Positions 143-48,870 of a stretch of 48,870 nt of DNA are shown in pieces. Numbering within the stretch: position 1 is the first letter of the stretch; each line of letters opens with the position of its first letter. The notes under the pieces were generated by a model. The model searched no databases. It had not been told where the DNA came from and saw only the letters and a list, made by a program, of their open reading frames with translations. Both the position numbers and the translations under genes were made by a program. Source of the stretch: Lachnospiraceae bacterium (GTDB lineage: Bacteria > Bacillota > Clostridia > Lachnospirales > Lachnospiraceae); assembly GCA_024699645.1 (NCBI GenBank), contig JAILPE010000051.1, forward strand, positions 1-48,870, read 5' to 3'.

Positions 143-1552
143 ATGGCTTATGATATATCAAAATGTATCAATGTATCCATCAGCGAAGATCAAATGCAAG
201 CCTATATCTACATTTCGTCTCAGCCTGATGAAGAAGGAAATGTTATCGCCGACTCGATAACACCCGAATCGCTTCGTGATTTTCTTACATCTCATGGTAT
301 AAAAGCCGGTATCGACAAAGAGCTTATACAACAGATAGTTATCAATAAACTCTATGACCGTCGTCATCTCATAGCTGAAGGTAAACCGGCAGTCAACGGA
401 ACAGACGGTAGCTTTAAGCTTCTCTTTAAAACAGAAATAGACAATAAACCTAAGGTTCTTGAAGACGGTTCGGTTGACTACCATAACATAGATCTTTACG
501 AGCCCGTTCATAAAGGAATGAAGATAGCCGAATACACTCCTTCAACACCCGGTCATTTCGGATATAACATAACGGGAGCCGTTCTCAACTGTAATAACGG
601 ACGAGAACTTTCTCCTCTTAAAGGCACCGGATTTACTATCTCCGATGATAAAAAATCCTATTACGCTTCTTTGGACGGTAAGATCGAATTTAAAAACGAT
701 ACCATTACAGTCACAAATGTACTTGATATATCCGGAGATATAGATCTGACAACAGGTGATGTTGTTTTTAACGGTGACGTTATCGTGCACGGAAACGTTT
801 ATATGGGCGCCGTAATTAAATCAAAAAACAATATAACGATTATGGGTAACGTCGAAGGTGCCATGCTCTATGCCGGAGGAGATGTTCAGCTTAAATCGGG
901 TATGCAAGGCGGCGGCAAAGGATATGTCGAAGCCCGGGGAGATATAAGCGGAAAGTTTTTTGAACAGACCAAGATCCGTTGCGACGGTAACCTGAATGTT
1001 AACTCCATGATGAACTGTGATGTGTTCTGTTGCGGTGATATCACTATTTCGGGACGTCACGGCATTATCGTCGGCGGAACTACGATGACTCAGGGAAATA
1101 TCAATGCTACTGTTATCGGAAATATGGCCGAAGTTAAAACTGTTGTTGCTGCCGGAGTTAACGAAAAGCTTGTCAAAGAGATCAACGAACTTGAAAATGA
1201 AATAAAAACGATCAAAGAAGCCCATGCAAAGCATGAAAGGATCCTCGACATGCTTAAGACGATAAAGAATCCTTCAGAGCAAAATAAGATCAACAAAATG
1301 CTCGACCAGGTTATCCAGTCCATGCAGGAGCTTGATCATAAGTTATCCGGCCTTAACAGTGAACTTGAAGCCAAATTATTCCAGACGCAAAATTATTCAA
1401 AATCCAAGATCACTGTACAAAAGTACTTATATCCCAATGTTCATGTAACACTCAACGGTCTTCACTACTTGACGAAAGACACTTTTACAAATGTTTATCT
1501 GACTGAATCAGCGGGTCAGATAGCCGTAATAAACGATATACATAACAAATAA
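143..1552 (+). CDS. FapA / DUF342 family protein
   Basis: 469-aa ORF with strong RBS; beta-helical repeat region (GDVVFNGDVIVHGNVYMGAVIKSKNNITIMGNVEGAMLYAGGDV...) then coiled coil, typical of FapA/DUF342. Confidence 0.85.
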   Translation: MAYDISKCINVSISEDQMQAYIYISSQPDEEGNVIADSITPESLRDFLTSHGIKAGIDKELIQQIVINKLYDRRHLIAEGKPAVNGTDGSFKLLFKTEIDNKPKVLEDGSVDYHNIDLYEPVHKGMKIAEYTPSTPGHFGYNITGAVLNCNNGRELSPLKGTGFTISDDKKSYYASLDGKIEFKNDTITVTNVLDISGDIDLTTGDVVFNGDVIVHGNVYMGAVIKSKNNITIMGNVEGAMLYAGGDVQLKSGMQGGGKGYVEARGDISGKFFEQTKIRCDGNLNVNSMMNCDVFCCGDITISGRHGIIVGGTTMTQGNINATVIGNMAEVKTVVAAGVNEKLVKEINELENEIKTIKEAHAKHERILDMLKTIKNPSEQNKINKMLDQVIQSMQELDHKLSGLNSELEAKLFQTQNYSKSKITVQKYLYPNVHVTLNGLHYLTKDTFTNVYLTESAGQIAVINDIHNK

Positions 1553-1577
1553 GAGCAGTCGTGATGACTGCTCTTAT
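1549..1577 (+). terminator. Hairpin overlapping the fapA stop codon
   Basis: Perfect 12-bp stem ATAAGAGCAGTC-gtgat-GACTGCTCTTAT; the TAA stop lies inside the left arm; only a weak T-tract follows. Confidence 0.6.
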
Positions 1578-1715
1578 CATATAACCCTTATATATCATAG
1601 TCCAATGTCTTCTGCTCTTCTTTACGTAACTTATATCTTCTGCTGTTCTTAAAATTCCTTTATCTTCCGTTATAATTAAATTTTCTATATCTTCTTCAGT
1701 TATTAACAAGGTTTT

Positions 1716-2195
1716 TTACTGTTCTTCTTTTACACAAATATATATATTTACATACTCCTCATCATTGATAACAACGGGGATCGACAATGCAGGGATATCC
1801 GACTGAAGCTTCATCTTCTTACCGTGCATACATAAAGGAGGCGTAATATCAAATATTATATTCATAGTTGAAAACAGGGTTGCGGTATTACCGAGTATCA
1901 TATTCCCGAGTTCACCGAGAGCCGAGCATGCCATGGGATCAAGCGATTCAACGGGCATTCCCATCATCATGACGCTGGCGATGTTCATTGCCTTAGCATC
2001 ATTCATCTTAAAGAATACCTGTCCTTTCATAGCTCCGGTAACACCAACCTGAATAAGAAAAGTATCTTCGGGAAAATCAAGGTCCGCAAGCGAAGGCTTA
2101 CCTACTTTACCGCCGGCAAGTCCAAGAGTTTCAAAAATAGTAAGTGTAGCCTTAAGAAACGGATTGATATATTTGATATCAAGTGCTTGACCCAT
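1716..2195 (-). CDS. CheX-like chemotaxis phosphatase family protein
   Basis: 159 aa, with ALGELGNMILGNTATLFS resembling the CheC/CheX/FliY E-x2-N motif; RBS AAAGGAGAA upstream. Confidence 0.8.
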   Translation of the reverse strand: MGQALDIKYINPFLKATLTIFETLGLAGGKVGKPSLADLDFPEDTFLIQVGVTGAMKGQVFFKMNDAKAMNIASVMMMGMPVESLDPMACSALGELGNMILGNTATLFSTMNIIFDITPPLCMHGKKMKLQSDIPALSIPVVINDEEYVNIYICVKEEQ

Positions 2196-2259: not shown

Positions 2260-4167
2260 TCATTGCAAAAATAGCAAGTAAAAAAGGAACAAAATTGTCA
2301 AACACAAACCAATACTGATAAAAAACAAGTTTGCCGATATCGATGATGCTATTACCTCATCTTTTTCCTGCATATTCTTTATTTTGCTATGAACTTTATC
2401 AATATAAGGATGCTTTTTATCAGTAATATCTTTAAACGCTATCTTTCTGATAAATACAACAGTCGAATCAAACATTCCTCCGAAAAATCCTGCAATAGCT
2501 TTGGCAGCTCTTAAAACAATGCGTGCGATTGCATTGGGTAATATCTGAGCGATAAATCTGCATATCGATCCAAAAACGGCCGGCAGAATCTTAAGTAAAA
2601 GCGGTCTGTATATCACTTCTTCAATATCAAGCCATAAAGGCCATTTCTGTAGATATACTCTTCCTCTCACCTCGTCTTTTTTTGTAAGATACAGCCTTAT
2701 AAAGAATATGTATATAAGAGCACCGAATGACAGCGATATTAACGAGCCTTTCAGATTCTCGAGAGAGAAAATACTGATATTTTCAAGTATTTCTTCACCC
2801 TCGCCCTCTATCGTGAAATTATTGAAGCCGCTCATAAACACGCCAAGCTTCCTCATAAATATGTTTGGTAACAATCCAAAGAAAAGTATCACGCAAGCCG
2901 GTATCAATGCGCTTAAATAGCTGGCAAATCCGATCTTGGAATCTGTTTTATTTTCCTGAGGCTCCGAAGGTTTTTCAACAAATATGGCAATAAACAGCTT
3001 GGTCATATACGCTGCTGTCATTCCTCCGCAGATAAGGAATAACCATTCGCTGATCTGTAAGAAAGTATGTCCGTTTGAAGCGACATGAATGTATTCCACA
3101 AGTCCTTCATGTATAAGCGTTTTGCTGACATAACCGCTGAAAAGAGGAACTCCGCTTATTCCGAGTGCCCCGATAAGGAATATTATCTTAAGAAATATTT
3201 TGTCTCTTCCGAATCCTCGAAGCTTGTTAAGGTCAAGACTGTGTGTCTTCATGTATATGATACCTGCCGAAAGGAACAGACAGAGCTTAAACATTGAGTG
3301 GTTTACCATATACAATAATGTTCCCGTAGCGGCAAGGGTACACTCTTCTCCGAGAAGCAAAGTTAGCGATGCTCCGACAATGATGAATCCGATCTGAGAA
3401 ACCGACGAACATGCAAGCGTTTTCTTTAGATCTGTAGAGAACAGCGCCGGTAATGCACCGGCAAACATCGTAATAAAGCCGAATATATAGAGAACGGTAC
3501 CAAATCCGTTATTACCGGCCATAATTTCCAAGACGATTATAAGTATTCCGAATATACCGCACTTTGTGAGAACACCCGACAAAAGTGCACTCGCCGGAGC
3601 AGGCGCAACCGGATGTGCTTTCGGTAACCATACATGAAGCGGAAACATACCGGCTTTAGCGGCAAATCCAAACAGGATGAGTACTGCCGACCATGTAAGT
3701 CTGTTTTGCTCCGATGACGAACCCGAGCCGAGTATTCCGGAGCATAAAGGACCCAGATCAACTATCCTTAGTGTCCCGACAAGATCATACAGCATAAAGA
3801 GTCCCATAAGCATTACAAGACCGCCTATAACGGCAACGGCAAGATAAGTTGAACCCGCTCTTACGGCATCTTCTTTTTTTGTATGAACAACAAGTATGTA
3901 AGAAGTGAACGACATTATCTCAAAGAAAATAAACGTGGTATAAAGGTCTGCGGAAAGGAATACCCCCAGTGTTGCAAACATTGTCAAAAAGCTGAATATA
4001 TGATAGCGAGTCTTTCCTTTACTCTTTCCGAAATACTCGGGAGTAAGCATAGTACTGCAAAGCCACATCACCAATGTGACTATTCCGTATACAATCCTGA
4101 ATCCGTCCAAACGAATCGACATCCCGAGTCCCACAAGACCATCAAAACTCACTTCAAAAGGAAGCAT
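2260..4167 (-). CDS. NuoL/M/N-type proton/cation antiporter subunit (Mrp/Mbh antiporter-like), long form
   Basis: 635 aa polytopic; conserved FFEIMS (TM5 Glu), KAGMFPLHVWLPKAHPVAPAPASALLSG and NHSMFK motifs; C-terminal extension. Confidence 0.9.
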   Translation of the reverse strand: MLPFEVSFDGLVGLGMSIRLDGFRIVYGIVTLVMWLCSTMLTPEYFGKSKGKTRYHIFSFLTMFATLGVFLSADLYTTFIFFEIMSFTSYILVVHTKKEDAVRAGSTYLAVAVIGGLVMLMGLFMLYDLVGTLRIVDLGPLCSGILGSGSSSEQNRLTWSAVLILFGFAAKAGMFPLHVWLPKAHPVAPAPASALLSGVLTKCGIFGILIIVLEIMAGNNGFGTVLYIFGFITMFAGALPALFSTDLKKTLACSSVSQIGFIIVGASLTLLLGEECTLAATGTLLYMVNHSMFKLCLFLSAGIIYMKTHSLDLNKLRGFGRDKIFLKIIFLIGALGISGVPLFSGYVSKTLIHEGLVEYIHVASNGHTFLQISEWLFLICGGMTAAYMTKLFIAIFVEKPSEPQENKTDSKIGFASYLSALIPACVILFFGLLPNIFMRKLGVFMSGFNNFTIEGEGEEILENISIFSLENLKGSLISLSFGALIYIFFIRLYLTKKDEVRGRVYLQKWPLWLDIEEVIYRPLLLKILPAVFGSICRFIAQILPNAIARIVLRAAKAIAGFFGGMFDSTVVFIRKIAFKDITDKKHPYIDKVHSKIKNMQEKDEVIASSISANLFFISIGLCLTILFLFYLLFLQ

Positions 4168-4181
4168 TTATATTTCCTCCG

Positions 4182-5639
4182 TCAATAAATAAGAAATCCT
4201 TCAATATGACCCCACATAAGTCCAAGGATAAAAATAACCGTTGAAAACAGAACGATCGGAGTTTTCATCCTTATACCCGGATCCTTTGCATTTTCCAAAT
4301 CTTTCGAGACGACTCCGCTCTCCGGGAAATAAGCTTTTATCACAACAGTCATCAGGTAGATCGCCGTCAGTATTGCCGATACGATTATTGCCCCGGCACC
4401 GATATAAGAAGCTGCACTTCCCTCATCGATGGCGGCCTCTATCAGATTATATTTGCTCATAAATCCCGAAAAAGGCGGGATTCCTATAAGACACAGCGAG
4501 CAGACAAGGAAACATGAAAAGATCACCTTCATCTTCCGGCCGAGGCCTCCGATCTCACTTATCAGAGTTTTGCCGGTAACATGCATAACTGCGCCTATGC
4601 AGAAGAAAAGAGCTATCTTTGTAAGGGCGTGGACAAGGAAATGGGACAACGAACCGTAAAGACCCATCGGCGTCATAATACATGCTCCGAAAACAACATA
4701 CGATAAGTTGCTTATAGTCGAATAAGCGAGTCTTTTCTTTATATGCGGCATTCTGACGGCCATGTAAGATCCGTACAAAATGGTTAAAATACAGAATCCC
4801 ATTGCCGCATATTGCGCATATGTTCCACTTAAAACCTCGGTTCCGAATGAATAGTATATAAGCCTTATTACCGCAAACGCACCTGCTTTAACCACTGCTA
4901 CGGCATGCAGTAATGCTGTAACCGGTGTAGGAGCAACGGCGGCATGAATAAGCCACTTTCCGAAAGGCATTATAGCTGCTTTAACACCGAAGCCAAGGAA
5001 CATCACAAGGAATATAAACGGGAGCAATTGTCCGTATTCACCTGCGATTGCTGACAAGAAACCGCCTTCCGTAAACACTACCGTTCCGGAAATATTAAGT
5101 ATCACGATCAGGCCCATAAGCGCAAATCCCGCGCCACCGAGCATATAGACAAGATAGTTTCTGCCTGCCGCTACTGCTTCTTTTGTTCTTTCATGCATAA
5201 CAAGAGGAAACGTAAACAAAGTGATGAGCTCATAAAATATATACATAGTAAAGAGATCACCTGCGAACGAGACGCCAAGTACCGCTCCGAGTGTCATCAT
5301 AAAGAACGCAAAAAATGAATTCTTGTTTTCTTCTCCTTCCATATACTCATATGCATAAAGTAAACTGAAAGGCCATAAAACAGATACGATCAGTCCGAAA
5401 AATCTCGTCATAAAGTCGATCCCGAAAGTGATCTTGAGAGAAAATCCGGTGTCATAAAGGACAAAACTCTCACCATAGCCCATACAAACAGCCGAAATAA
5501 CAAGGATCAGGTTTATTACGGATATGACAAAAGTGATCGTATTTCTTACTTTATCGTTCCTGAGCTTCAGGAAAAGTATCGCGCATCCGCTCAAAATCGG
5601 CAACATCACAGCTGCAAGAAGCAATACTTTGTATAGCAT
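4182..5639 (-). CDS. NuoL/M/N-type antiporter subunit (MrpD-like)
   Basis: 485 aa polytopic; FYELIT and KAAIMPFGKWLIHAAVAPTPVTALLHAV, VHALTK motifs. Confidence 0.9.
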   Translation of the reverse strand: MLYKVLLLAAVMLPILSGCAILFLKLRNDKVRNTITFVISVINLILVISAVCMGYGESFVLYDTGFSLKITFGIDFMTRFFGLIVSVLWPFSLLYAYEYMEGEENKNSFFAFFMMTLGAVLGVSFAGDLFTMYIFYELITLFTFPLVMHERTKEAVAAGRNYLVYMLGGAGFALMGLIVILNISGTVVFTEGGFLSAIAGEYGQLLPFIFLVMFLGFGVKAAIMPFGKWLIHAAVAPTPVTALLHAVAVVKAGAFAVIRLIYYSFGTEVLSGTYAQYAAMGFCILTILYGSYMAVRMPHIKKRLAYSTISNLSYVVFGACIMTPMGLYGSLSHFLVHALTKIALFFCIGAVMHVTGKTLISEIGGLGRKMKVIFSCFLVCSLCLIGIPPFSGFMSKYNLIEAAIDEGSAASYIGAGAIIVSAILTAIYLMTVVIKAYFPESGVVSKDLENAKDPGIRMKTPIVLFSTVIFILGLMWGHIEGFLIY

Positions 5640-5705
5640 AATCTAAAATCTCCCTTAAAAACGATATTCAACAATGCTTATTCTTAAACCGGCATAACCA
5701 ATCGA

Positions 5706-7205
5706 TCAGGGCATCATCGAACCGGCGATCTCCTGAAGGATTCCTGTTACAGTACCGGGGAATATACCAAAAAAGAGAGCGAGCGTTGCCAATAATACTA
5801 TAGGAACCAAAGAAAGCGGCTTTGCTTCATGTGAGAACGACTTTTCTTCTTCATCTTTTCCTTTGAAGAAACCGTCTATCATGACAGGAAGCAGATAACC
5901 GGCTGTCAGTAAAGCACTGACAAGAAGTATTGCAGGTCCTATATAAGCCAAAGGTCCGATATCTGATGTAAGTGCTCCTTCTGCAAGAAACCATTTACTG
6001 ATAAATCCACTCGCTGGAGGGATACCTATCAGCGCGATAGACGAGACAGTAAAGCTTATTATCGATATAGGCATCTTCTTTCCTATACCGTTTAGTCCAT
6101 CGCATGTCGTAACGCCTGTATTATGAATGATCGATCCCGAAACAAGGAACAGATCGTCTTTTATTATCGAGTGGAAAATAACATGTAATAAAGCGCCGAG
6201 AATAGCAACAGGATTCATTACCGAAAGTCCGAAAAGAACGTAAGATACCTGGCTTACCGTTGAAAATGCAAGACGTTTCTTAAGCCCGTTCTCACGGAAA
6301 GCAAGCATCGATCCCATGAATACAGTTATAAGAGCCAGTATCATCCAGGCATATTGTACCCATGTTCCTTTTATAAAATCTGCACCGACACTGTAAAAAA
6401 CAACTCTAATGATCGCAAGTACACCGGATTTTGTAATTATACCGGAAAGTAATGCACTTGCGGGCGCCGGAGCAATTGGATGGGCAACCGGTAACCAATC
6501 GTGCATAGGGAAGAGACCTGCTTTACACCCAAATCCGATGATTGCGAGGAAAACAAATACAAGCAACAACCCTTCTTTACCGCTAACCATTGAAGAGTCG
6601 ATAAATCCACCGGCAGTAAACTCATGCACGTCACTCATCGAGTATATGACGAATATGGCCATGAGGGATAAAAGTGCCCCTCCGATCGAATAAAACAGAT
6701 ATTTAAATCCGGCACTGATCGCTTCTTTCGTCAAGCTGTGAAGGACAAGAGGAAGTGAAAAAAGTGTCATCATCTCATAGAACAGATATAACGAAACAAG
6801 ATCCGATGCATAGTACATTCCCGAAAGAATTCCCATCAGACACATATAAAACAAATAAAATCTTTTCGTATTCTCTTCGTGCTTCATGTAATCAAACGAA
6901 TAAAATCCGACCGTTATGAACATTAAAGACATAAGCAGTGCAAAAACGATCGAGAGATTATCCGCTTTAAACGACAGCGAAACCGAATCGGTAATCTTTA
7001 CAAGAACAAATTTTAATTCTTCGCTCGCCGAAAAAACGGCAATAAGAACATTAAGGATCCCGCTGACAATCATTACTACTGCCGTATACAGACATACTCC
7101 GAAATGTGTGCCGATCTTATTGCGTACAGCAATAAAGATGCCCGCGCACAAAAGCGGGAAAAATACTGATAAAGGAATCAAAAAGCTCATAAAAAGATAC
7201 CTCAC
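5706..7205 (-). CDS. NuoL/M/N-type antiporter subunit (MrpD-like)
   Basis: 499 aa; FYEMMT, KAGLFPMHDWLPVAHPIAPAPASALLSG, FHSIIK motifs. Confidence 0.9.
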   Translation of the reverse strand: MRYLFMSFLIPLSVFFPLLCAGIFIAVRNKIGTHFGVCLYTAVVMIVSGILNVLIAVFSASEELKFVLVKITDSVSLSFKADNLSIVFALLMSLMFITVGFYSFDYMKHEENTKRFYLFYMCLMGILSGMYYASDLVSLYLFYEMMTLFSLPLVLHSLTKEAISAGFKYLFYSIGGALLSLMAIFVIYSMSDVHEFTAGGFIDSSMVSGKEGLLLVFVFLAIIGFGCKAGLFPMHDWLPVAHPIAPAPASALLSGIITKSGVLAIIRVVFYSVGADFIKGTWVQYAWMILALITVFMGSMLAFRENGLKKRLAFSTVSQVSYVLFGLSVMNPVAILGALLHVIFHSIIKDDLFLVSGSIIHNTGVTTCDGLNGIGKKMPISIISFTVSSIALIGIPPASGFISKWFLAEGALTSDIGPLAYIGPAILLVSALLTAGYLLPVMIDGFFKGKDEEEKSFSHEAKPLSLVPIVLLATLALFFGIFPGTVTGILQEIAGSMMP

Positions 7206-8735
7206 TTAATCAAAAACATTAAGTCCTTTCGTTATTATGTCGCTTAAAAGCTTAGGTGCCACGCCTATGCATATATTTAAAACCGCAAGAGCAGAAATGC
7301 TCACTGCGTGTATTGCCCTTTCATAACCGGTGACAATAAGAGTATCGGACTTCAGATCCAAAGTGCCGTTATTTTCGTCTTTACCGTCAAATCCGCCATA
7401 GGCATAAAGATTAATAATACATCTGAAGAAATAAACAACATTTAAAATCGTACTAACGGCAATCGCCGATATTGCAGCGTACATCTTCCACCCTTCCGTA
7501 AATGATGCATTGGCCAAAAGCATTTTTGCAACAAATCCGGCAAAAAGCGGAAATCCGACGATGGAAAGTGCAGCAGCTGTAAATGTGGCCGCCGACAACG
7601 GATATTTATGCCCCATTCCTTTAAGATCGCTTATCTTTATATCTTCTTTTTTACCGGTAAAAGAACTTGCGGCCAGGAAAAGAAGCGATTTTGTAAGTCC
7701 GTGGGTGATAATATGGAATATCGCCGCTACAGCTCCCGCATCATTGGCTATACCTATCCCCATAAAAATATACCCTATCTGAGATACAGAAGAATAAGCC
7801 GTCATTCTCCGCAGGTACTTTGATCTTATCGCAGATACCGACCCCATGATCATAGCCGCAATGCCGGCTATAAAAATAATGTTGAATACACCCGATGCTT
7901 TGTATACATCAAAACCGATAACCCTGTATATTATCTTTATCAGCAGGAAAATATATCCCTTTGACACCATTCCCGATAACATTGAGGATGACGGAGCGAC
8001 AGATCTCGAATAAGCGTCGGGAATCCAGAGATGGAACGGAAAAAGACCCGATTTTATCGAAAGCCCGACAGTCATCAACGCGGTTATAACCGTCAAAGTG
8101 ACATCGTAACTTCCGTCAGCGACAAGTCCCATAACCGATTCATGTATGTTTTCCATCAAAAGATGCCCCGTAACTGAATACATAAGCGTTGTGCCTATCA
8201 GGAACAGACCCGAACCCACAAGGCTCACAACCATATACCTTATGGCCGATGCGATCGCCCTTCCTGAGTTCTTGATCATGATCAGACCGCAGCCGGCTAT
8301 AGTATTAATTTCTATAAATACATATCCGGTAAAAATATCATTTGTATATATAAGCGCCAAAAGAGACGCTTCCATGAGACATGTTATAAGATAATAAAGG
8401 TTTTGCTTTGATTCGTCTATCTCATTTCGGATCGAAGCACTTCCGGCAGTGAGTGACAGCAGCGATATAACACACGTAAACACGGCCATTATTCCCTCAA
8501 GCTCTCCGGCTCTGATCTCGTTTCCCCACGGAGCGGGGAAATGTCCCATCATATATACAAAGCTTTCACCGCATTCATGCAGATATACAGTAAGAACGAT
8601 CGAAAGTATAAGCGTTATAAAAACAGCTGCTTTGGCGACGACTGCCGCTGCTCTTTTCCCGAGCATAAACGTTGAAAGTGCCGCAAGCATACAGATCATT
8701 ATTGAAAAGAAAGGAAAATTAAGAACAAAATCCAT
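7206..8735 (-). CDS. NuoL/M/N-type antiporter subunit (MrpD-like)
   Basis: 509 aa; FIEINT, KSGLFPFHLWIPDAYSRSVAPSSSMLSG, THGLTK motifs. Confidence 0.9.
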   Translation of the reverse strand: MDFVLNFPFFSIMICMLAALSTFMLGKRAAAVVAKAAVFITLILSIVLTVYLHECGESFVYMMGHFPAPWGNEIRAGELEGIMAVFTCVISLLSLTAGSASIRNEIDESKQNLYYLITCLMEASLLALIYTNDIFTGYVFIEINTIAGCGLIMIKNSGRAIASAIRYMVVSLVGSGLFLIGTTLMYSVTGHLLMENIHESVMGLVADGSYDVTLTVITALMTVGLSIKSGLFPFHLWIPDAYSRSVAPSSSMLSGMVSKGYIFLLIKIIYRVIGFDVYKASGVFNIIFIAGIAAMIMGSVSAIRSKYLRRMTAYSSVSQIGYIFMGIGIANDAGAVAAIFHIITHGLTKSLLFLAASSFTGKKEDIKISDLKGMGHKYPLSAATFTAAALSIVGFPLFAGFVAKMLLANASFTEGWKMYAAISAIAVSTILNVVYFFRCIINLYAYGGFDGKDENNGTLDLKSDTLIVTGYERAIHAVSISALAVLNICIGVAPKLLSDIITKGLNVFD

Positions 8736-9181
8736 TATTTTACACCCTCTCTTTCCTGTCCGTCCTTATCGTCCGATATTTTAACGATCGTGTCGGAACT
8801 GTCTTCTACTTTTGATTCTTCAGAAACCTTCATAAGGATCTCATCAAGATCGAGTGTTTTGTATTTACGATATAACCTGATCGTCATAGACAACATAAGC
8901 GCTGTAACACTGACAGAAACAACGATTCCCGTGAGTACAAGTCCGCTTGGTATCGGATTGATATAAGTTGCGGCATTCTCACTTCCGTCGGTAAGTATCG
9001 GTGCAAGTCTTCCGCTTATATATCCCTGCGAAGCAAGTAAGAGGAATATCGCAACATCCATAATATTAAGGCCGATTATCTTTTTGATAAGGTTTTTCTG
9101 AAAAAGCAGATTTGAAAAGCCTATCACAAAAAGGATCGCGGCAATTATATCATTGAAATGATCATAAATCTGTTCAAACAT
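8735..9181 (-). CDS. MrpC/NuoK-like subunit
   Basis: 148 aa, three predicted TM segments, IGFSNLLFQKNLIKKIIGLNIMDVAIFLLL typical of MnhC/MrpC; shares an end coordinate with the next gene (8735). Confidence 0.85.
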   Translation of the reverse strand: MFEQIYDHFNDIIAAILFVIGFSNLLFQKNLIKKIIGLNIMDVAIFLLLASQGYISGRLAPILTDGSENAATYINPIPSGLVLTGIVVSVSVTALMLSMTIRLYRKYKTLDLDEILMKVSEESKVEDSSDTIVKISDDKDGQEREGVK

Positions 9182-9306
9182 ATTTCTCTCCGATATTTTT
9201 GTTTGCTGTATTTGCAGTCAAAATATAAAGGCTGCATCCTGTTTCAGCACTTCGTTTTATGTCGCTCTCGCGATACTTGGTGCGTTTTGTTAGCATAAAC
9301 TGCAGA

Positions 9307-10131
9307 TCAGATCTTTCCTCTGCGCAAAAGACTGAAAAACGAATACATCGTACATGCTACGACAAGACCTACGCAAATATTCAGGATCAGGATAAGACCA
9401 CTGCTGAGGATATTACCGGGTGTCCCGAGCGGAATACCCGATTCAAGATGATTTGCACCCGTAAAGAATGAATAACTCTTTGCAAGGCAATATATCAGCA
9501 ATGAAACAAAAGTAATGATCCCTGCACTCTTTTTGTTAAGAAAAATCTCCATCCTTTCAAAACCGAAAGCTACCGATGAAAGGATAAAACCACTGCCGAC
9601 TATCGCTCCTCCCGAAAATCCTCCACCGGGTGAAAGATGTCCGTTCAGGATAACATATATTCCAAAGATTAGAATAAAAGGAATCGCAAATTTGGCGACA
9701 GTTTTAAGAATAACATCATTTCTTGCAATAAGAGGCTCGATCTCTTCGATTTCAGTTGTTTCACTTACAACATCTTCCGCCGTATCCGTATCTTTTCGAC
9801 ATCTTTCTTTGCCATTGGAAGGCTTTTGTGAAAGAAGGAGTACCATAACGCATATAGTAGCGGCGAACAAAACATTCGATTCACCGAATGTATCAAAAGC
9901 TCTGTAATCAAGGATCATTCCTGCAACAAAGTTTACAGCACCGGTTTCTTCGATACCGTTTTCGATATAGCGCTCCGCAACTACATTTTCTCCGGGATGA
10001 TCTGCCGAAAACAGTCCCGGAAGGTCAAACATACAAAAAATAAGGGATGCGGCAAGAATCAATACAAGAAGAGCTCCCGCTATCCTGTAAACCGTATAAT
10101 ACCTTTTCTTATCTTTACCGTTAAGACTCAT
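9307..10131 (-). CDS. MbhE + MrpB (MbhF)-like fusion subunit
   Basis: 274 aa; N-terminal part ETGAVNFVAGMILDYRAFDTFGE (MbhE-like) and C-terminal HLSPGGGFSGGAIVGSGFIL (MnhB/MrpB). Confidence 0.85.
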   Translation of the reverse strand: MSLNGKDKKRYYTVYRIAGALLVLILAASLIFCMFDLPGLFSADHPGENVVAERYIENGIEETGAVNFVAGMILDYRAFDTFGESNVLFAATICVMVLLLSQKPSNGKERCRKDTDTAEDVVSETTEIEEIEPLIARNDVILKTVAKFAIPFILIFGIYVILNGHLSPGGGFSGGAIVGSGFILSSVAFGFERMEIFLNKKSAGIITFVSLLIYCLAKSYSFFTGANHLESGIPLGTPGNILSSGLILILNICVGLVVACTMYSFFSLLRRGKI

Positions 10132-10226
10132 AAACTATCACCCTTTTCTACAGCCTTCATTATCGATCATAATGCTTCATTGGTACATCCCATGCTTACG
10201 ATCATGATTTTTCTTTGGTACATTCG

Positions 10227-10496
10227 TTAATTGTCACTCTCTTTGTAATTTTCATCGGCATCTTTGATACGTCCGATCTTCTTCAGAGTTGCATAAAACA
10301 AAAGTCCCGTAACTCCTGCTCCGACAGCTGCTTCCGTTATCGCAAGGTCAGGTGACTCAAGAATCATCCAGATCACAGCAACAATAAGACTGAACGATCC
10401 GTAAACAATAACGGAAGCGGTCAGACTCTTTATAAAGCTTACAACAACGGCGCAAACAACCAGCAGCACCAAAAGTATAATCATGAGAATATCCAT
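10227..10496 (-). CDS. DUF4040 / MbhD-like subunit
   Basis: 89 aa; ESPDLAITEAAVGAGVTGLLFYATLKKIG typical of MbhD / MrpA C-terminal DUF4040. Confidence 0.85.
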   Translation of the reverse strand: MDILMIILLVLLVVCAVVVSFIKSLTASVIVYGSFSLIVAVIWMILESPDLAITEAAVGAGVTGLLFYATLKKIGRIKDADENYKESDN

Positions 10497-10521: not shown

Positions 10522-10574
10522 GTCTCGCTTATAATCCCCCACATACGTAAGTGTGGGGCTTATCTTACCGAGAC
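10522..10574 (-). promoter_or_regulatory. Imperfect long hairpin in the 5' leader of the Mrp/Mbh-like operon
   Basis: Nested arms GTCTCG (10522-10527)/CGAGAC (10569-10574), ATAA/TTAT, CCCCACA (10537-10543)/TGTGGGG (10552-10558), immediately upstream of the first operon gene. Confidence 0.5.
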
Positions 10575-31209: not shown

Positions 31210-33189
31210 TCACATACGTTTCTTCTTTTTGTGTTTATCTCTTTTCGGAGAATCATCTATCTCCTCCTCAACCTTACGATTGGAGAAGTAAACAAAATCG
31301 TCGATGGAATTCAAAATATCTTCAAAATCGCTCCTCGGTGCTTCCTCGATATACCTTTCAAGGATCTTGTTTTCGTTTTCGCCTTTATATTTACCGTAGA
31401 ATATATCAAAAAGATTATGACCTCTTACATATATCTTTATCTTTTCGAGATTTCTCTTTATATCTTCCTTCGACTTGATGGTAATGCCGGTTATCTCCTT
31501 CATCCTTTTAACGCTTGAGAGTTTATATAAATATGCCCTGAATTTTTCCTGCAATATATTATAGAATTCCTCTTCGTTTTTAATAACGCCTATCTTAGCC
31601 ATTACCTTCGGATTAAGGAAGTAGTTTTCAAACGAATAATACTTGAGTACAAGTACGTTTTTTGGCTGAACTCTCGGAATGTTTCCAGAATCCTCCTGAT
31701 ATCTCGAATAATAATATGAGCAAAGCTGTTTAACGAGAGTTTCAGGCTTTTTACCGTCACTGTCTCTGATCATCAAAAATTGATCCTTAAGGTAAATCTG
31801 GTTGATATACTTAAGATTTGCGTATGTTTTGATGTTTGTACAGCTGTTTGTTGTAATGATCGATACACGCTGCAACCTTCCGTCTTCATCGTAAATCTCG
31901 GAGTAATACTTTTTAAGCAAGAGCGGCAATCTGTTGCTATCCTGCTTACCCTCGACAATAAAGACGAAGTTAACGTTCATGAGATCGTTCGCAGAGTATC
32001 CGAGATCATCAAGGATAACGTCTATATCGGGATCTTCGATCGCTGTTGTATAGTAATTGTCATCAAGTACTACCTGTTTTAACTGTTTAGACGTAAAGTT
32101 AAAAATCAGATTCGGTGAATGAGTCGAAAAGATAACCTGATTTTTCTTTGACAGCCTGTAAAGTATCTCACTCGCAACCTTCTGAAGCTGAGGATGAAGA
32201 TATATCTCGGGATCTTCGATCATAATGATACACGGCATAGTCCTTGAATCATCGAGATATGCTTCAAGCATTGAAAGAATGTATATGCTCTTTCCGCCGG
32301 CGCTTAAATGCTCGACCGAATCGGTTCCGTAACGATCTGATTTTATAACTGCGGTTCCGAGACTGAACAGCTCCGTCGGATTGATATTAAGCACAAATCT
32401 GAAATTCTGCTGCTTGCCGCTGTTACGCGTATAATACTTGTTGAGATTATACATAAACTCATCAAGATTAACGTTCATAAGTTTATATTCAAGCAGCTTG
32501 AAGGTCTGGGCTATCGTCATAGACTCGGGTTCTTTTGAAAGTATCTCGGGTATACAGTTAAAGCAGTTGGTACAAGGACACGAAGGATCAAGTATACACG
32601 ATCCGTGCTTGAGAGAACTCAACATATCCGATGTTTGAGCCGAAAAGATTTCGTTCTGTATCCCTTTTACATCTCTTGAAACATCGATAAAATGAACCTT
32701 GGGTATGATCTCGACGATCCTTTCGTTATTTTTGCTGAAACCGTCATAATAACGGACATTAAGATCTCTTTCGACAACATAAACGAATTTGACTATTCCG
32801 CCGTAATCTACCGGTTGGGTGATTTTTGTATAGTTCTCATATTCATCGGAAACTTCTTTTTTCAACTTTTCGAATGAAGGAAGTTCTTTTCTGAACTCTT
32901 CATACCACTTTTCGAAATTCTTATATTTGCTGATGACACCTGTTTTGTGAAACATTAATATATCATCGTTCGATAATTCAAGGTCGACAGCTATCTCAAT
33001 ATTCCTTTCACAGTCATTAAAGTCACCCGGCTTTACTTCATATTCTCCGGCCATCGCTCTGATCGCGTGCAGAATCGTAGTTTTACCTGTACTGTTTTTA
33101 CCGACGACGATCATCGCATTTTCAATGTTTTCGAGGACAAGCTCTTTTATGGTTTTGAAATTTTTGATGAATAACGACGTGATCTTCAT
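31210..33189 (-). CDS. OLD-family ATP-dependent endonuclease (ABC-type ATPase + TOPRIM)
   Basis: IVVGKNSTGKTTILHAI Walker A, IIMIEDPEIYLHPQLQ Walker B, FIVEGKQDSNRL and MIRDSDGKK TOPRIM-like motifs. ATG at 33189 is preceded by AAGGAGG; the ORF track uses a TTG at 33198. Confidence 0.85.
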   Translation of the reverse strand: MKITSLFIKNFKTIKELVLENIENAMIVVGKNSTGKTTILHAIRAMAGEYEVKPGDFNDCERNIEIAVDLELSNDDILMFHKTGVISKYKNFEKWYEEFRKELPSFEKLKKEVSDEYENYTKITQPVDYGGIVKFVYVVERDLNVRYYDGFSKNNERIVEIIPKVHFIDVSRDVKGIQNEIFSAQTSDMLSSLKHGSCILDPSCPCTNCFNCIPEILSKEPESMTIAQTFKLLEYKLMNVNLDEFMYNLNKYYTRNSGKQQNFRFVLNINPTELFSLGTAVIKSDRYGTDSVEHLSAGGKSIYILSMLEAYLDDSRTMPCIIMIEDPEIYLHPQLQKVASEILYRLSKKNQVIFSTHSPNLIFNFTSKQLKQVVLDDNYYTTAIEDPDIDVILDDLGYSANDLMNVNFVFIVEGKQDSNRLPLLLKKYYSEIYDEDGRLQRVSIITTNSCTNIKTYANLKYINQIYLKDQFLMIRDSDGKKPETLVKQLCSYYYSRYQEDSGNIPRVQPKNVLVLKYYSFENYFLNPKVMAKIGVIKNEEEFYNILQEKFRAYLYKLSSVKRMKEITGITIKSKEDIKRNLEKIKIYVRGHNLFDIFYGKYKGENENKILERYIEEAPRSDFEDILNSIDDFVYFSNRKVEEEIDDSPKRDKHKKKKRM

Positions 33190-33228
33190 GAATGACAATT
33201 ACCTCCTTGATGATCGATCAATGATAAC

Positions 33229-36200
33229 TTACCTGATCGCTATATCAATTTTATCGATAAAATCTCCGTAATCCTTTAGTACTTCTTCGTATTTTTTATC
33301 AATAAATTCAGTATCACCGTTTTTTCCGGCCATTTCAAGCTCAAGAGCCTTCTCAGAAAGCTCTTTGATCCCGATTCCTCTTGTAAGGCTTTTAACCGCA
33401 TGTATCTGCGTTGTAAATTCTTTATAATCCTGTTTAGTGACCAGATCCTTCATGAGTCCTATCTTTTCTCTTCCGTCGCTCACAAAGATCTGAAGCACTT
33501 CCATAAGCATATCTACATCACCGCCGGCGTACTCTATCGCGATATCTGTATCAAGACCTGCTTCTTTCAGCCTGTCAACGATCTTTTTATCATTGTCTTC
33601 TTCAATAAGCTTATCTTCCTCTTCACCATCCCGGACCAATGTACCGAAAACGATCTTATCCTTAGGGATATAATCGAGCAGCATCTGTTCAAGCCTTGAT
33701 ATCTCAATAGGCTTAGAAAGGAAATCTACAAATCCTTCATTTAAGAACATCTCCTTCATCCCTGATACAGCATTGGCCGTAAACGCGATAAAAGGTGTCT
33801 TCCTGTTGAGATTATCTTCGGACGCAAGAATCTCTCTGATTGTATCGATACCGTCCTTATGAGGCATCATATGATCAAGGAACACTATGTCATATACGTT
33901 GCGTTTTGTATATTCAATACAAGCATCCCCGCTTTCGACAGCATCGATCATAAATCCGTGCGGTTCACAAAGGCTCTTAAAGATTTTAAGATTGACCGCA
34001 TTATCATCGACAACAAGTATCCTTGCCGAAGGAGCACAATACTTTTTATTCTCTATATAATTGTTAACCGGTGAGAGTGGTGAACCGTTGATAAACGCAC
34101 CGAGGTTCAACGAGGAAACAGGTGTTTTAAACAATCTGCCACTGTAATTATCTACCTTTTCAGCGTATTTATGAATGCATACAAGCCGTTTGTCGAGTAT
34201 TATCCTGCTGCCTGCAACAAACAAATCCTGATAGACCTTATTGTTTACAAAGATCATTGAAACCGAAGGATCGTCACATATAAGATCAAGTTCATTTTTA
34301 TCGTTTAAACATTTATGATCCATACATAATGATTCACATGCATCCTTCATATCATCCTCAAGTGAAAGATCCTCAAAACAATATACGATCTTTTCATGAA
34401 TATTGCTGTTTATAACAACAGACGGCGTTTGGTCCTCTATATCCTGAGGCAAAGATACCGTAAAAGTGCTTCCGATCCCATATTCACTCTCAACGCTTAC
34501 AGAACCACCCATAAGCTCAACGAGCTGTCTTACGATGGCAAGTCCGAGCCCTGTGCCTTCGATTGATTTGTTTATATCGGGATCAAATCTTTCAAATCTC
34601 TCGAATATCCTCGCAAGATTCTCCTTGCGAATACCGATACCCGTGTCTGTGACCGATATATTTAATATATATTTTGATTCTTCCCGTCTTCCGCCTATCT
34701 CAAAAAATATCTGACCTTTTTGGGTATATTTGCACGCATTTGTCAAAAGATTAAAGATCAACTGTTTTACTCTTATTTCATCTCCCACAAGGTATAGCGG
34801 CAGGTTCGGGTCAAATCTTAAACGCAGATTAAGATTCTTGTCATGAACCCGCTGCAGCATACTTACAACAAGATCATACACTACCGAAGTAATCATGTAC
34901 TTATCATTTACAATTGAAAGCTTTCCCGATTCAATCTTTGAGAAATCCAGAATATCATTGATTATCCCCATAAGTATCTTTCCGGAATTGAGGATTGAGT
35001 TGGCATGGCTTAATACAGTCTTGTCTTTGGAATCACGTAACAACAATTCTGTCATTCCAAGGATTGCCGTCATGGGAGTTCTTATCTCATGAGACATCTG
35101 AGCAAGAAATATGCTTTTCGAGCGCTCGGCACTGACTGCCTTGTTCATTTTATCTTCGGTTTCCAAATACTGCTTTTCAAGCTGTTCCTGTTTTTTCTCA
35201 AGCGAATTGATCCTTCTCTCTTTTTCGCCGAGAATATCAACGATATGCATAATCTCACCGTGATTATCGGATGATGTTCTGACACCTTCCGTGATCAGAT
35301 CAAATGCCTGATTGATCTGGTCCACTTCTTTGGGAAAATTGATTATCGCGATACCGGGTATGAGATAAAATTCTTTTTCTCTTATCTTCCAGAGATTGCT
35401 GAATCTTTCCAAAATACGAGATATCGTATCGTCAAGTTCCGTTTCTTCAACCGTAACAAGATAAACATTTGTCTCTATACAGAAGGTATTATTGAACCCA
35501 AATTCATGATAAAGGAATCTCGTGAGTGCATATGCAAAAGAATCTGTATAAGCGTTAAGATCCGAATCGTGTACATTCTGGTCTTTAAACTGTTGATCGA
35601 ATACCCCCACACCTATAAGCGAGCATTCACGGCCCGCCGTACGTATGTCTTTTAAGCTCTCAAGTGCAGTCCTTCTGTTATAAATGTCCGTTCTCAGATC
35701 GGTCAGATCGTTGTAATTATGGTTTGACAAATAAAGGACAAGGGTGCCGAGCGCTTCGGCAAGTCCGTATAAGAGTACATCCTTAAGAAACCACTGAAGT
35801 AAACATGCTGCGAGCATAAATACAACAAAACAATAAAAGGGGAGTCTCTTTCTCAGGGATATATTATCGCTGTAGAATGTGATCCTGATAAAACTGAACA
35901 ACAGATAGGCGATCACAAGTACGAGCATAAGGAACATAAAAGGTCCCTGAACATATGTATTGTCATCTTCAAGATAAAAGAAAATGCCGGTAAATGGCGT
36001 TGACAATACCATGATAGCATAAAGCGCATACGGTATCATGAGAACCGTAAGCTTACCGATAAGATTTTTAATTATTGAATCCGTTCTTGATTGAATAAGC
36101 GAATACGCACAGAACAGTGCGGACAGCAGCCCCGTCACAAGGAAATAAAGGATCGCAGCGCCGTATATAACGATTGGATGAAAAAGATCTTTATATTTGA

Positions 36201-36369
36201 TCGTATATGCCGAAAACACATCGAGGACAATACTGCAAGAAGCGATAATGGCAAGAGAGATGAACATTCTGTTTCGCATACTTTGAAATCTTCGTCTTGA
36301 AAAATAATAAACGAAGAACATAATCATGATGACTATCGCACAATAATCAAAATCAAGATTATAATTCAT
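33229..36369 (-). CDS. Hybrid histidine kinase: multi-TM sensor, degenerate GGDEF-like, HisKA-HATPase, pseudo-REC, REC, Hpt
   Basis: MSHEIRTPMTAILG H-box, GTGLGLAIVRQLVELMGG, REC IVFLDHMMPHKDG, Hpt IHAVKSLTRGIG. AGGAGG precedes ATG at 36369; the ORF track starts at 36396. Confidence 0.9.
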   Translation of the reverse strand: MNYNLDFDYCAIVIMIMFFVYYFSRRRFQSMRNRMFISLAIIASCSIVLDVFSAYTIKYKDLFHPIVIYGAAILYFLVTGLLSALFCAYSLIQSRTDSIIKNLIGKLTVLMIPYALYAIMVLSTPFTGIFFYLEDDNTYVQGPFMFLMLVLVIAYLLFSFIRITFYSDNISLRKRLPFYCFVVFMLAACLLQWFLKDVLLYGLAEALGTLVLYLSNHNYNDLTDLRTDIYNRRTALESLKDIRTAGRECSLIGVGVFDQQFKDQNVHDSDLNAYTDSFAYALTRFLYHEFGFNNTFCIETNVYLVTVEETELDDTISRILERFSNLWKIREKEFYLIPGIAIINFPKEVDQINQAFDLITEGVRTSSDNHGEIMHIVDILGEKERRINSLEKKQEQLEKQYLETEDKMNKAVSAERSKSIFLAQMSHEIRTPMTAILGMTELLLRDSKDKTVLSHANSILNSGKILMGIINDILDFSKIESGKLSIVNDKYMITSVVYDLVVSMLQRVHDKNLNLRLRFDPNLPLYLVGDEIRVKQLIFNLLTNACKYTQKGQIFFEIGGRREESKYILNISVTDTGIGIRKENLARIFERFERFDPDINKSIEGTGLGLAIVRQLVELMGGSVSVESEYGIGSTFTVSLPQDIEDQTPSVVINSNIHEKIVYCFEDLSLEDDMKDACESLCMDHKCLNDKNELDLICDDPSVSMIFVNNKVYQDLFVAGSRIILDKRLVCIHKYAEKVDNYSGRLFKTPVSSLNLGAFINGSPLSPVNNYIENKKYCAPSARILVVDDNAVNLKIFKSLCEPHGFMIDAVESGDACIEYTKRNVYDIVFLDHMMPHKDGIDTIREILASEDNLNRKTPFIAFTANAVSGMKEMFLNEGFVDFLSKPIEISRLEQMLLDYIPKDKIVFGTLVRDGEEEDKLIEEDNDKKIVDRLKEAGLDTDIAIEYAGGDVDMLMEVLQIFVSDGREKIGLMKDLVTKQDYKEFTTQIHAVKSLTRGIGIKELSEKALELEMAGKNGDTEFIDKKYEEVLKDYGDFIDKIDIAIR

Positions 36370-36392
36370 ATTTCCTCCTGACCTAAACACCG

Positions 36393-37652
36393 TCAAAAAG
36401 TAATGATATCGACACCTTTCGGACTGTTAATCTCGATCTGTTGCTCTATCGAGCCTTCCTCAAATCCTTTTTCGGAATAAGGTACTTCTACTATGAGTTC
36501 ATATACAGTGTTAAAAAAGATTCCGTATTCCGTTTCATTCGGAACACTCAATCCGGTTTTTCTTGACATAAAGCGTATCTTATTGAGAGAAGTACAATAG
36601 CAAAATGCTCCTTCGTATATATTCTTGATCTTATCTCCGATAACCATCCGGGTGATCCTTTTGTTCCCGGCAAATGCATACTTGCCTATCTTTGTTACGG
36701 TTGACGGGATCTGTATCCCGTTTTCTGCGGCAGATGCACTGATCAGCTTTTTTCCCGATTTTGTCAGAAGGAGATTCTTTGAAGCTTTATAATTATCGTT
36801 CAATTTAGCGACCTTTATCTCTTCCAGGCGATCGCAAAAAGAAAACGGATTTTCCGTAATTTTACTTGTACTTTCAGGAATTTTTATGCTTTTGAGACCG
36901 CTTTTCGAAAAAGCATTCTTACCGATGGTCTCAACAGCTTTTAATTTAACTCCCGACAGATTTGTACAATTATAAAACGAATAGCCGGATATCGATATGA
37001 CGCTCATCGGGAATGTAACAAAAGTCAGATTTTCGTTGTATGCGAACGCATATTCACCAACTGCTGTAACCCCGTCTTGAATTAAGTATTTACCGGAAAT
37101 CCCCGGCGCGGCAATCAAAGTCTTCCCGTCTTTTGAATAAACAACGCCATCGGCAGAAGAAAAAAGTTTGTTTTCCTCGCTTATGATAATGTTTTTTAAG
37201 GCCGAACACTTAAAAAAAGCTGTGGAAGGCATTGTTTTTACAGTCGACGGGATGATCAGTTTTTTGAGATCGGAGCAATTACAGAAAGCACCGGTACCGA
37301 TTTCGGTAATGCCTTCTTCAATCGTTATCGATGATATCCCGGTAACGGATTCAAACGCAAGATTATCAATTTTTACAACCGTATAATTGATCTGATTTTT
37401 TCGCAGCTCAAAAGGGATCTTTAAATTTTTGATCAAATCCTTATCAGCCTTCTCGTCTATCCCCGATACTGCAACGGTTCCATAGTTTCGCCCTTTTTCT
37501 TTACTCAAAACCATGTAATGTACGCCGTTCTTTGTGAAATCGGTCACTATCTCGGCTCCCTGAGCTTTATAATCCCCGGTTCCGAATATCGCACCTGTTG
37601 CAATAAACAGGATAGTAATAATGCACAGGCATATTCTCCCAACATTTTTCAT
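36393..37652 (-). CDS. BspA-type leucine-rich-repeat (LRR_5) secreted protein
   Basis: 419 aa; signal peptide; repeats such as ITIEEGITEIGTGAFCNCSDLKKLIIPSTVKTM; start overlaps the upstream stop (TAATG). Confidence 0.9.
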   Translation of the reverse strand: MKNVGRICLCIITILFIATGAIFGTGDYKAQGAEIVTDFTKNGVHYMVLSKEKGRNYGTVAVSGIDEKADKDLIKNLKIPFELRKNQINYTVVKIDNLAFESVTGISSITIEEGITEIGTGAFCNCSDLKKLIIPSTVKTMPSTAFFKCSALKNIIISEENKLFSSADGVVYSKDGKTLIAAPGISGKYLIQDGVTAVGEYAFAYNENLTFVTFPMSVISISGYSFYNCTNLSGVKLKAVETIGKNAFSKSGLKSIKIPESTSKITENPFSFCDRLEEIKVAKLNDNYKASKNLLLTKSGKKLISASAAENGIQIPSTVTKIGKYAFAGNKRITRMVIGDKIKNIYEGAFCYCTSLNKIRFMSRKTGLSVPNETEYGIFFNTVYELIVEVPYSEKGFEEGSIEQQIEINSPKGVDIITF

Positions 37653-47208: not shown

Positions 47209-48870
47209 TTATTTGTAGAGTTCAACAAGTTTCTGTAAGTGCTCGAAACGAGCCTTTGCAGCCTTTTCGGACTCATCGAAGAGCTTCTCTGCTCTCTCAG
47301 GGAACTTAACCTTAAGTGAAGTGTAACGTGTCTCATTGTTAAGGAAGTCCTGATATGTTCCGTCGCCGTCCTTAGATGTAAGGGTGAAGGGATTCTTGCC
47401 CTCAGCCTTAAGAGCGGGATTGTATGAGAAGAGGTTCCAGTAACCGGCAGCAACTGCCTTCTTCATCTCATCCTGGCAATGGTTCATGCCACCCTTAACT
47501 CCGTGGAGTTCGCAAGGTGCGTAACCGATGATGAGTGAAGGTCCGTTGTATGCCTCAGCCTCTGTAAGTACCTTAACTGCCTGAGCAGGGTTAGCACCGA
47601 GAGCGATCTGAGCAACGTAAACGTAACCATAGCTCATAGCGATCTCTGCAAGTGACTTCTTGCCGATTTCCTTACCTGCTGCAGCGAACTGACAAACCTC
47701 ACCGATGTTGGAAGCCTTAGATGCCTGTCCACCTGTATTTGAGTACATCTCCGTATCGAATACCATAACGTTAACGTTCTCACCGGATGCAAGTACGTGA
47801 TCAAGACCACCGAATCCGATATCGTATGCCCATCCGTCACCACCGAGGATCCAAACGGACTTCTTGCTTAAGTACTGCTTCTTTTCAAGAACAGCCTTGC
47901 AATCGGGACATCCTGCTGCTGCACCCTTTTCAAGCTCTGCAACAAGTGCTGCTGCAGCTGCGGGGTTCTCTTTTGTACTGTCCTTAGTCTCAATAAACTT
48001 AGCGATAGCAGCCTTTGTGCTTTCAGGAGTATCTGCACCTGCAGCGATTTCATTAAGTTTAGCTATAGCCTGGTCACGAAGAACCTTCTGGCCAAGATAC
48101 ATACCAAAGCCATGCTCTGCGTTATCCTCAAAGAGCGAGTTAGCCCAAGCGGGTCCACGAAGTGAATCTTTGTTAACTGTGAAAGGTGATGTAGCTGCGG
48201 GACCACCCCAGATTGATGAACATCCTGTTGCATTCGAGATGTACATCTGCTCACCGAAGAGCTGGGTAATAAGTCTTGCATAGCTTGTCTCTGCACAACC
48301 TGCACATGATCCTGAGAACTCAAGAAGAGGCTGGTTGAACTGTGAACCCTTAACGGTGTTCTCAGCGGGAGCTTCTGCCTTACGTCCAACGTTAGCAACA
48401 AGGTAATCAAATACAGGCTGCTGTTCGCTCTGTGTTTCCTGAGGAACCATCTTGATAGCCTTAACCTTATCGGGACAAACAGTAACGCACTCGCCGCAAC
48501 CCATACAGTCAAGAGGTGAAATGCTCATTGTAAACTTGTACTGTGAAGCCTTGGGCTTTGTATCTGCAAGTTTAATCTGTGCGGGAGCTGCCTTAACTTC
48601 TTCTTCAGAAAGCATGTAAGGACGGATCGTAGCATGTGAGCAAACAAATGCACAGTTGTTACACTGAATACATTTCTCAGGATCCCATTCAGGAACCATA
48701 ACTGCTGTACCACGCTTCTCATATGCTGCAGCACCGATCTCAAACTGACCGTCTGCAATATCCTTGAATGCCGATACGGGAAGGCTGTCACCATCCATAA
48801 GAGCGATAGGATTCATGAGGTTTTCAACCATCTTAACAGTCTCGGGACGTCCTGTAAGCTTCTTAGGTGC
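47209..48870 (-). CDS. nifJ: Pyruvate:ferredoxin (flavodoxin) oxidoreductase, C-terminal part; 5' end outside the window
   Basis: Ferredoxin Cys motifs (CIQCNNCAFVC, CMGCGECVTVCP), TPP region (GGDGWAYDIGFGGLDHVLASGENVNVMVFDTEMYSNTGGQ); the frame stays open to the window edge. Confidence 0.95.
   Translation of the reverse strand, partial: APKKLTGRPETVKMVENLMNPIALMDGDSLPVSAFKDIADGQFEIGAAAYEKRGTAVMVPEWDPEKCIQCNNCAFVCSHATIRPYMLSEEEVKAAPAQIKLADTKPKASQYKFTMSISPLDCMGCGECVTVCPDKVKAIKMVPQETQSEQQPVFDYLVANVGRKAEAPAENTVKGSQFNQPLLEFSGSCAGCAETSYARLITQLFGEQMYISNATGCSSIWGGPAATSPFTVNKDSLRGPAWANSLFEDNAEHGFGMYLGQKVLRDQAIAKLNEIAAGADTPESTKAAIAKFIETKDSTKENPAAAAALVAELEKGAAAGCPDCKAVLEKKQYLSKKSVWILGGDGWAYDIGFGGLDHVLASGENVNVMVFDTEMYSNTGGQASKASNIGEVCQFAAAGKEIGKKSLAEIAMSYGYVYVAQIALGANPAQAVKVLTEAEAYNGPSLIIGYAPCELHGVKGGMNHCQDEMKKAVAAGYWNLFSYNPALKAEGKNPFTLTSKDGDGTYQDFLNNETRYTSLKVKFPERAEKLFDESEKAAKARFEHLQKLVELYK

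Follow-up and report, generated by a model that had tools for sequence, protein, structure and literature searches.

Mrp-type monovalent cation/proton antiporters (CPA3) of groups 1 and 2 include Bacillus mrpABCDEFG and the complexes of Anoxybacillus, Dietzia, and B. pseudofirmus for which structures exist. They have exactly two antiporter-like subunits (APLS), a single-chain MrpA of about 800–950 aa, and no redox module. Cryo-electron microscopy of Mrp leads the cation through the half made of small subunits and one proton through each APLS, with two protons per cation (PMC7419157). Here we describe a locus with four APLS in a contig of 48,870 nucleotides from a gut or rumen Lachnospiraceae bacterium (JAILPE010000051.1, assembly GCA_024699645.1), the whole of which is called the window below. 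We consider it likely that its seven genes, together with unlinked mrpE, mrpF, and mrpG genes, encode a complete, redox-free Mrp-type antiporter of ten polypeptides with four APLS in a row, because the genome holds every Mrp building block, the four APLS keep their proton-path residues, and a catalytic module was not found.

Related systems carry other numbers of APLS. Group 3 Mrp of cyanobacteria (Aphanothece mrpCD1D2EFGAB) is redox-free, with an extra APLS (two MrpD plus MrpA) and an irregular gene order (PMC5703873). Redox-free Mrp operons with three APLS occur in Peptoclostridium acidaminophilum (EAL2_RS12435–RS12475), on plasmids of Rhodobacteraceae SC52 and Halomontanus rarus, and in many Clostridia; their order is E-F-G-D-(E)-B-C-D1-D2-D3, and the literature searched gave no name for the subtype. 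Complex I-like enzymes can build on the two-APLS unit and reach three or four APLS (PMC7419157), and complex I with four APLS is known (Chadwick et al. 2018, as cited in PMC7419157). Complex I is redox-driven, with NuoH and a catalytic arm, and is not known to have MrpE, MrpF, or MrpG. The MBH and MBS complexes of Pyrococcus join an Mrp-like membrane part, with one or two APLS, to a hydrogenase or sulfur-reductase module.

The Locus and Its Place among Mrp Systems

The source genome is a draft of 2.13 Mb in 123 contigs (93% complete, 4.5% contamination), and the window is one entire contig of it. A sequence-only reading of the window had reported seven minus-strand genes between positions 2260 and 10496. 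The seven open reading frames (ORFs) are intact at exactly these positions, and ORFs and Pfam matches agree with the gene order and the protein lengths that had been given:

10227–10496, minus strand: mbhD (DUF4040, counterpart of one portion of MrpA's C-terminal domain), 89 aa; PF13244, 1e-18
9307–10131, minus strand: mbhE-mrpB fusion, 274 aa; PF20501 (MbhE), 3.5e-9, and PF04039 (MnhB), 1e-27
8735–9181, minus strand: mrpC (NuoK-like), 148 aa; PF00420 (Oxidored_q2), 2e-20; top NCBIfam models are antiporter subunit C
7206–8735, minus strand: H1, APLS 1, MrpD/MbsH-like, 509 aa; PF00361
5706–7205, minus strand: H2, APLS 2, one copy of the duplicated middle APLS, 499 aa; PF00361
4182–5639, minus strand: H3, APLS 3, the other copy of the duplicated middle APLS, 485 aa; PF00361
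2260–4167, minus strand: H4, APLS 4, MrpA-N/NuoL-like, most likely the distal subunit, with a C-terminal long helix, 635 aa; PF00361

Because the intergenic gaps are only −1 to 125 bp, the seven genes look like one transcription unit. H1 to H4 each match Proton_antipo_M (PF00361) at 1e-50 or better in Pfam, and a whole-genome search found no other Proton_antipo_M proteins in this genome. Relatives, and also the three-APLS Mrp of Peptoclostridium, conserve the mbhD motif SPDLAITEAAVGAG in alignments. MbhE and MrpB are encoded by one fused gene in Lachnospiraceae relatives and by two genes in most three-APLS operons.

In common with groups 1 and 2, the genome has homologues of MrpB, MrpC, and MrpD (PF04039, PF00420, and PF00361, the last being H1, which the tree places with MrpD, NuoN, and MbsH), MrpE, MrpF, and MrpG, an MrpA-type APLS with a lateral helix (H4, resembling MrpA-N and NuoL), and the MbhD/MbhE-like domains, here in separate genes; neither has NuoH or redox subunits. 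The single-chain MrpA is here split into H4, MbhD, and the MbhE-MrpB fusion, and in the window's clade mrpE-F-G are unlinked and lie behind ftsZ. With four APLS instead of two, the system is therefore not a group 1 or group 2 Mrp. Judged by its gene content, the locus is a variant of Mrp outside these two-APLS, single-chain-MrpA groups, the other features tested being present.

The three-APLS operons share the gene order and likewise have no single-chain MrpA; their D1 and D2 are orthologous to subunits here and the D3 of Peptoclostridium groups with H4, the difference being one middle subunit instead of two. Group 3 Mrp shares the extra APLS and the irregular gene order but differs in its subunit set and in the order itself; our trees are built without cyanobacterial sequences. 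The set of homologues of NuoH, NuoD, and NuoB that marks MBH, MBS, and Ech (the group 4 hydrogenase family) is absent, as are the NuoH and catalytic arm of four-APLS respiratory complex I; the likeness to the latter is the four APLS, here predicted to sit in one complex. No description of a four-APLS Mrp turned up in the open literature searched.

The Missing Subunits Lie behind ftsZ

The sequence-only reading had found no mrpE, mrpF, or mrpG, which is true of the locus and false of the genome. All three turned up in a genome search on another contig (C75), where mrpE occupies 6656–7204 and is followed by mrpF and mrpG (MrpE PF01899, 9e-31; MrpF PF04066, 2e-13; MrpG PF03334, 7e-17). About 75 bp separate mrpE from the cell-division gene ftsZ, which stands directly ahead of it in the same orientation and may possibly be co-transcribed with the antiporter subunits. 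A better assembly from the same genus (G134; 99% complete, 1% contamination) has the identical split and the same ftsZ-mrpE-F-G order, which on one strand is found in the source genome (G000:C75:5949-8518, L035) and in eight related ones (L064, L155–L158, L160, L162, and L163). Contamination as the source of the C75 genes was ruled out, since the ftsZ-mrpEFG order recurs in G134 and seven further genomes. Likewise, a pseudogene or assembly artefact at the seven-gene locus was ruled out by the intact ORFs and by recurrence of the arrangement in G134 and seven further named loci.

The relatives compared comprised 150 genomes of the family and 80 named loci of the genome collection. A MbhE-MrpB fusion gene is present in 29 of the 150, every one of which also has an mrpE gene; in one more family genome, a short contig breaks off after MrpE-F-G-MbhD. 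Most of the carriers in the family show a contiguous mrpE-F-G-mbhD-mbhE/mrpB-mrpC-H1-H2-H3-H4, and this exact ten-gene order is seen in 55 of the 80 named loci. Seven others, those nearest the window, show only mbhD to H4, and all seven of their genomes have mrpE-F-G behind ftsZ; most of the other loci break off at a contig edge, or close to one, or depart from the order through a fragmented reading frame. The seven-gene layout is no oddity of one genome: it is a widespread ten-gene operon in divided form, and the idea of a complex without MrpE, MrpF, and MrpG is wrong. Two other Mrp-like clusters in the family (L041 and L042, in G087 and G084) have a single matching APLS gene after E-F-G-(D/E/B)-C.

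In L142 and in L051, a contig that recurs as L094 in another collection, ten linked genes lie downstream of ftsZ, with a CheX-like gene behind H4. The window's clade has kept mrpE-F-G by ftsZ and has mbhD to H4 plus CheX elsewhere. In G039 the break comes one gene later, with E-F-G-D near ftsZ and the remainder on another contig. Going by present gene order, this pattern is what one would expect if an operon formerly close to ftsZ had broken in two different places.

No Catalytic Module Was Found

The seven products might instead be the membrane arm of a redox-driven pump (of the Ech, Mbh, Mbs, or complex I-like kind) whose catalytic module is encoded elsewhere, which the sequence-only reading had offered beside a standalone complex with four potential ion channels. 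MbhD, MbhE, MrpB, and MrpC do resemble the membrane part of MBH, and H1 groups with MbsH. Redox relatives of Mrp possess NuoH, NuoD, and NuoB subunits. No homologue of NuoH/EchB/MbhM (PF00146) was found in the source genome, in G134, or in 27 of the 29 carriers, and none of NuoD/EchE (PF00346) or NuoB/EchC (PF01058) in 23 of the 24 carriers tested, the source genome included, or in G134. Because redox relatives have these three subunits and none was found here, a hidden catalytic partner is very unlikely, and a partner elsewhere in the genome was set aside on the same three families. The exception among the 24, G010, has homologues of NuoH, NuoD, and NuoB clustered on one contig (C12) and its Mrp operon on another (C65). 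Another family member, G137, encodes a NuoH homologue roughly 2.5 kb away from MbhE/MrpB genes (L039, G137:C31), which would favor a redox arm, but its APLS is of a different type and its system is probably an MBH-like complex distinct from the four-APLS operon. Taken as a whole, the sequence-only reading is half right: these searches support its standalone complex with four possible channels, it was mistaken about MrpE, MrpF, and MrpG, and a partner elsewhere is unlikely.

Two Rnf-Nqr family proteins are encoded in the source genome, and proteins of this family are present in 133 of the 150 family genomes; we infer that an Rnf pump might work together with the four-APLS antiporter.

Origin of the Four Antiporter-Like Subunits

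A broad APLS tree was built with references from Mrp, MBH, MBS, complex I, and hydrogenase-4 by a quick method, with several long branches, the structure references being represented by their aligned parts only. It places H1 in the MrpD/NuoN/MbsH part, where it groups with PEPACID_D1 (support 100) and then with HALO_D1, RHODOB_D1, and MbsH. H4 joins the third Peptoclostridium APLS (84) and, on a long branch, its counterpart on the Rhodobacteraceae plasmid. For H2 and H3 jointly, the tree gives a clade with D2, the second APLS, of the Peptoclostridium, haloarchaeal, and alphaproteobacterial operons (100). In a more careful tree of the middle subunits, H2 and H3 form separate clades (100/100 and 100/99) that are sisters (94/100). 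These trees show H2 and H3 to be products of a duplication of the middle subunit of a three-APLS Mrp, H1 and H4 matching its first and third subunits.

Three APLS are the usual form in the other Clostridia families sampled (f43, f50, f24, f25, f81, f10, and others), and four occur in f3, f38, f17, and f78 as well as in the window's family. Family f26 (L204, L205) also has four, but its extra middle-type subunit branches apart, on a long branch whose placement is weak, and perhaps represents a separate gain. A complex I-type operon on a plasmid of Rhizobium sp. Pop5 (L069) has four APLS, one of them in the D2 clade of H2 and H3, and looks like the four-APLS complex I kind.

A duplicated middle subunit raises another explanation, namely two alternative three-APLS antiporters, H1+H4+H2 and H1+H4+H3, in which H2 and H3 are isoforms for different cations or pH. 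That both copies go back to a single ancestral middle subunit, and that the unduplicated three-APLS Mrp is widespread in other Clostridia, is in keeping with this. Against it, H2 and H3 stay adjacent in a constant order, all other genes are single-copy in complete loci, and the two copies are strongly diverged and yet both have the proton-path residues. We regard such a division as unlikely.

Proton-Path Residues

Alignment bears out the claim that each of the four APLS has the Glu of transmembrane helix 5 (TM5) and later Lys and His motifs. The residues at TM5 (Glu), TM7 (Lys), TM8 (Lys), TM11 (His), and TM12 (Lys) are as follows:

H1: E142, K228, K259, H345, K404
H2: E144, K228, K259, H345, K404
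H3: E137, K220, K251, H337, K396
H4: E83, K171, K202, H290, K349

All five are kept in 22–24 sequences per subunit, with one exception, an Asn at the TM8 position of one H3. The sequence-only reading would have been undercut had two of the four genes been pseudogenes; all four ORFs are intact and carry these residues. Residues essential for antiport are the TM5 Glu and TM7 Lys of MrpA and MrpD, an Asp of MrpF, a Thr-Pro of MrpE, and a Pro of MrpG (PMC5703873), and in alignments those of MrpF, MrpE, MrpG, and the APLS are conserved here.

H4, the Probable Distal Subunit

H4 is without TM1-2 of its homologues, so that its TM5 Glu is residue 83 instead of about 137–144. An AlphaFold2 model (pLDDT 85.7, pTM 0.82) has a 63-residue helix at 515–577 and a final helix at 587–634, with low confidence around 560–600. 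Its best match in the PDB is 7qru_A, the MrpA of B. pseudofirmus (620 columns, TMq 0.74), and most of the next-best matches are MrpA- and NuoL-type chains, which bear the lateral helix. Because the best fold matches are chains of these types, H4 most likely takes the distal place in the proposed complex.

The missing helices, together with the separation of mrpE-F-G from the other seven genes, could be taken to mean that the locus is a decaying relict and its complex without function here. However, every ORF is intact with all key residues present, the split is common to the whole clade, and a short H4 is found in 31 of 89 H4 genes, many of them in complete operons, so that decay is most improbable. 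The short H4 is, from these comparisons, a recurrent feature and looks like the result of repeated loss of N-terminal helices. Animal ND2 is a precedent for such loss in an APLS.

A Proposed Mechanism

By analogy with Mrp structures, cations would pass through the half formed by MbhD, MbhE, and subunits B, C, E, F, and G, and protons through H1–H4, and the chain of Glu, Lys, Lys, His, and Lys would hand charge on between neighboring APLS. In this arrangement MrpC would have H1 as its neighbor, H2 and H3 would follow, and H4 would close the row, which its long helix would brace. If one proton passed each APLS per cation, up to four protons would enter for every cation leaving (about 4 H+/Na+), and exchange would be strongly electrogenic. 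Such an antiporter could drive Na+ (or K+) out even when the proton motive force is small, or in reverse could pump protons.

Several points weigh against a single complex of this kind. Sequence does not reveal the cation specificity, and the four APLS could be divided between two alternative complexes as described above. The assembly is incomplete, fragmented, and partly contaminated, yet G134 agrees with it. A row of four might need a longer bracing helix, and the long-helix tail of H4 shows no clear gain in length over three-APLS complexes: measured to the C-terminus from where the helix begins, H4-type subunits have a median of 128 residues with four APLS versus 122 with three, in overlapping ranges, so that tail length is no evidence either way on a single row of four.

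Neighboring Features

Two further features follow H4:

1716–2195, minus strand: CheX-like gene, 159 aa; PF13690, 4e-16; 64 bp behind H4
1548–1578, minus strand: terminator-like hairpin of 13 pairs after CheX, from a pattern scan

The CheX-like gene is probably co-transcribed with the H4 locus; it is a neighbor for which we claim no subunit role. It lies directly after H4 and on its strand in L044, L072–L076, L051, L094, L132, and L142; in L077 it has the other orientation. The adjacency is kept in split and linked operons alike. The pattern scan found 11 terminator-like sites where 7.5 are expected, a count that is not significant. In the leader between a divergent M24 peptidase gene and mbhD is a weak GC-rich hairpin (CCCCACA...TGTGGGG, 10537–10558), and an Rfam scan for a regulatory RNA in this leader gave no match. 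Elsewhere in the window, an AAA_15 ATPase and a hybrid histidine kinase, the latter containing receiver and Hpt-like domains, are neighbors on the same strand (31210–36396), and a partial pyruvate:ferredoxin oxidoreductase (EKR, Fer4, and TPP domains; 47209–48831) is probably truncated by the contig end.

Significance

For annotation, the seven-gene cluster and the mrpEFG block behind ftsZ belong together, and neither should be called incomplete. To our knowledge, the proton/cation ratio of Mrp has never been firmly measured. A leading mechanism for Mrp and complex I has one proton per APLS per cycle (PMC7419157), and a redox-free antiporter that exists in two-, three-, and four-APLS forms separates the question of the ratio from electron transfer; if the rule is true, the same small subunits with more channels should have a measurably different exchange ratio. 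We suggest, tentatively and as a possibility we rate below even, that two-, three-, and four-APLS Mrp form a series whose proton/cation ratio would rise through about 2, 3, and 4; in Clostridia there would have been at least one duplication of the middle subunit and perhaps a second.

The exchanger is carried by about one genus in six of the Lachnospiraceae, is widespread among related bacteria, and matters for members of the family in the gut and rumen. On thermodynamic reasoning, if the rule holds, the sodium motive force could reach up to four times the proton motive force at equilibrium, and this fourfold gearing would help where the proton motive force is small, as in fermenting gut bacteria.

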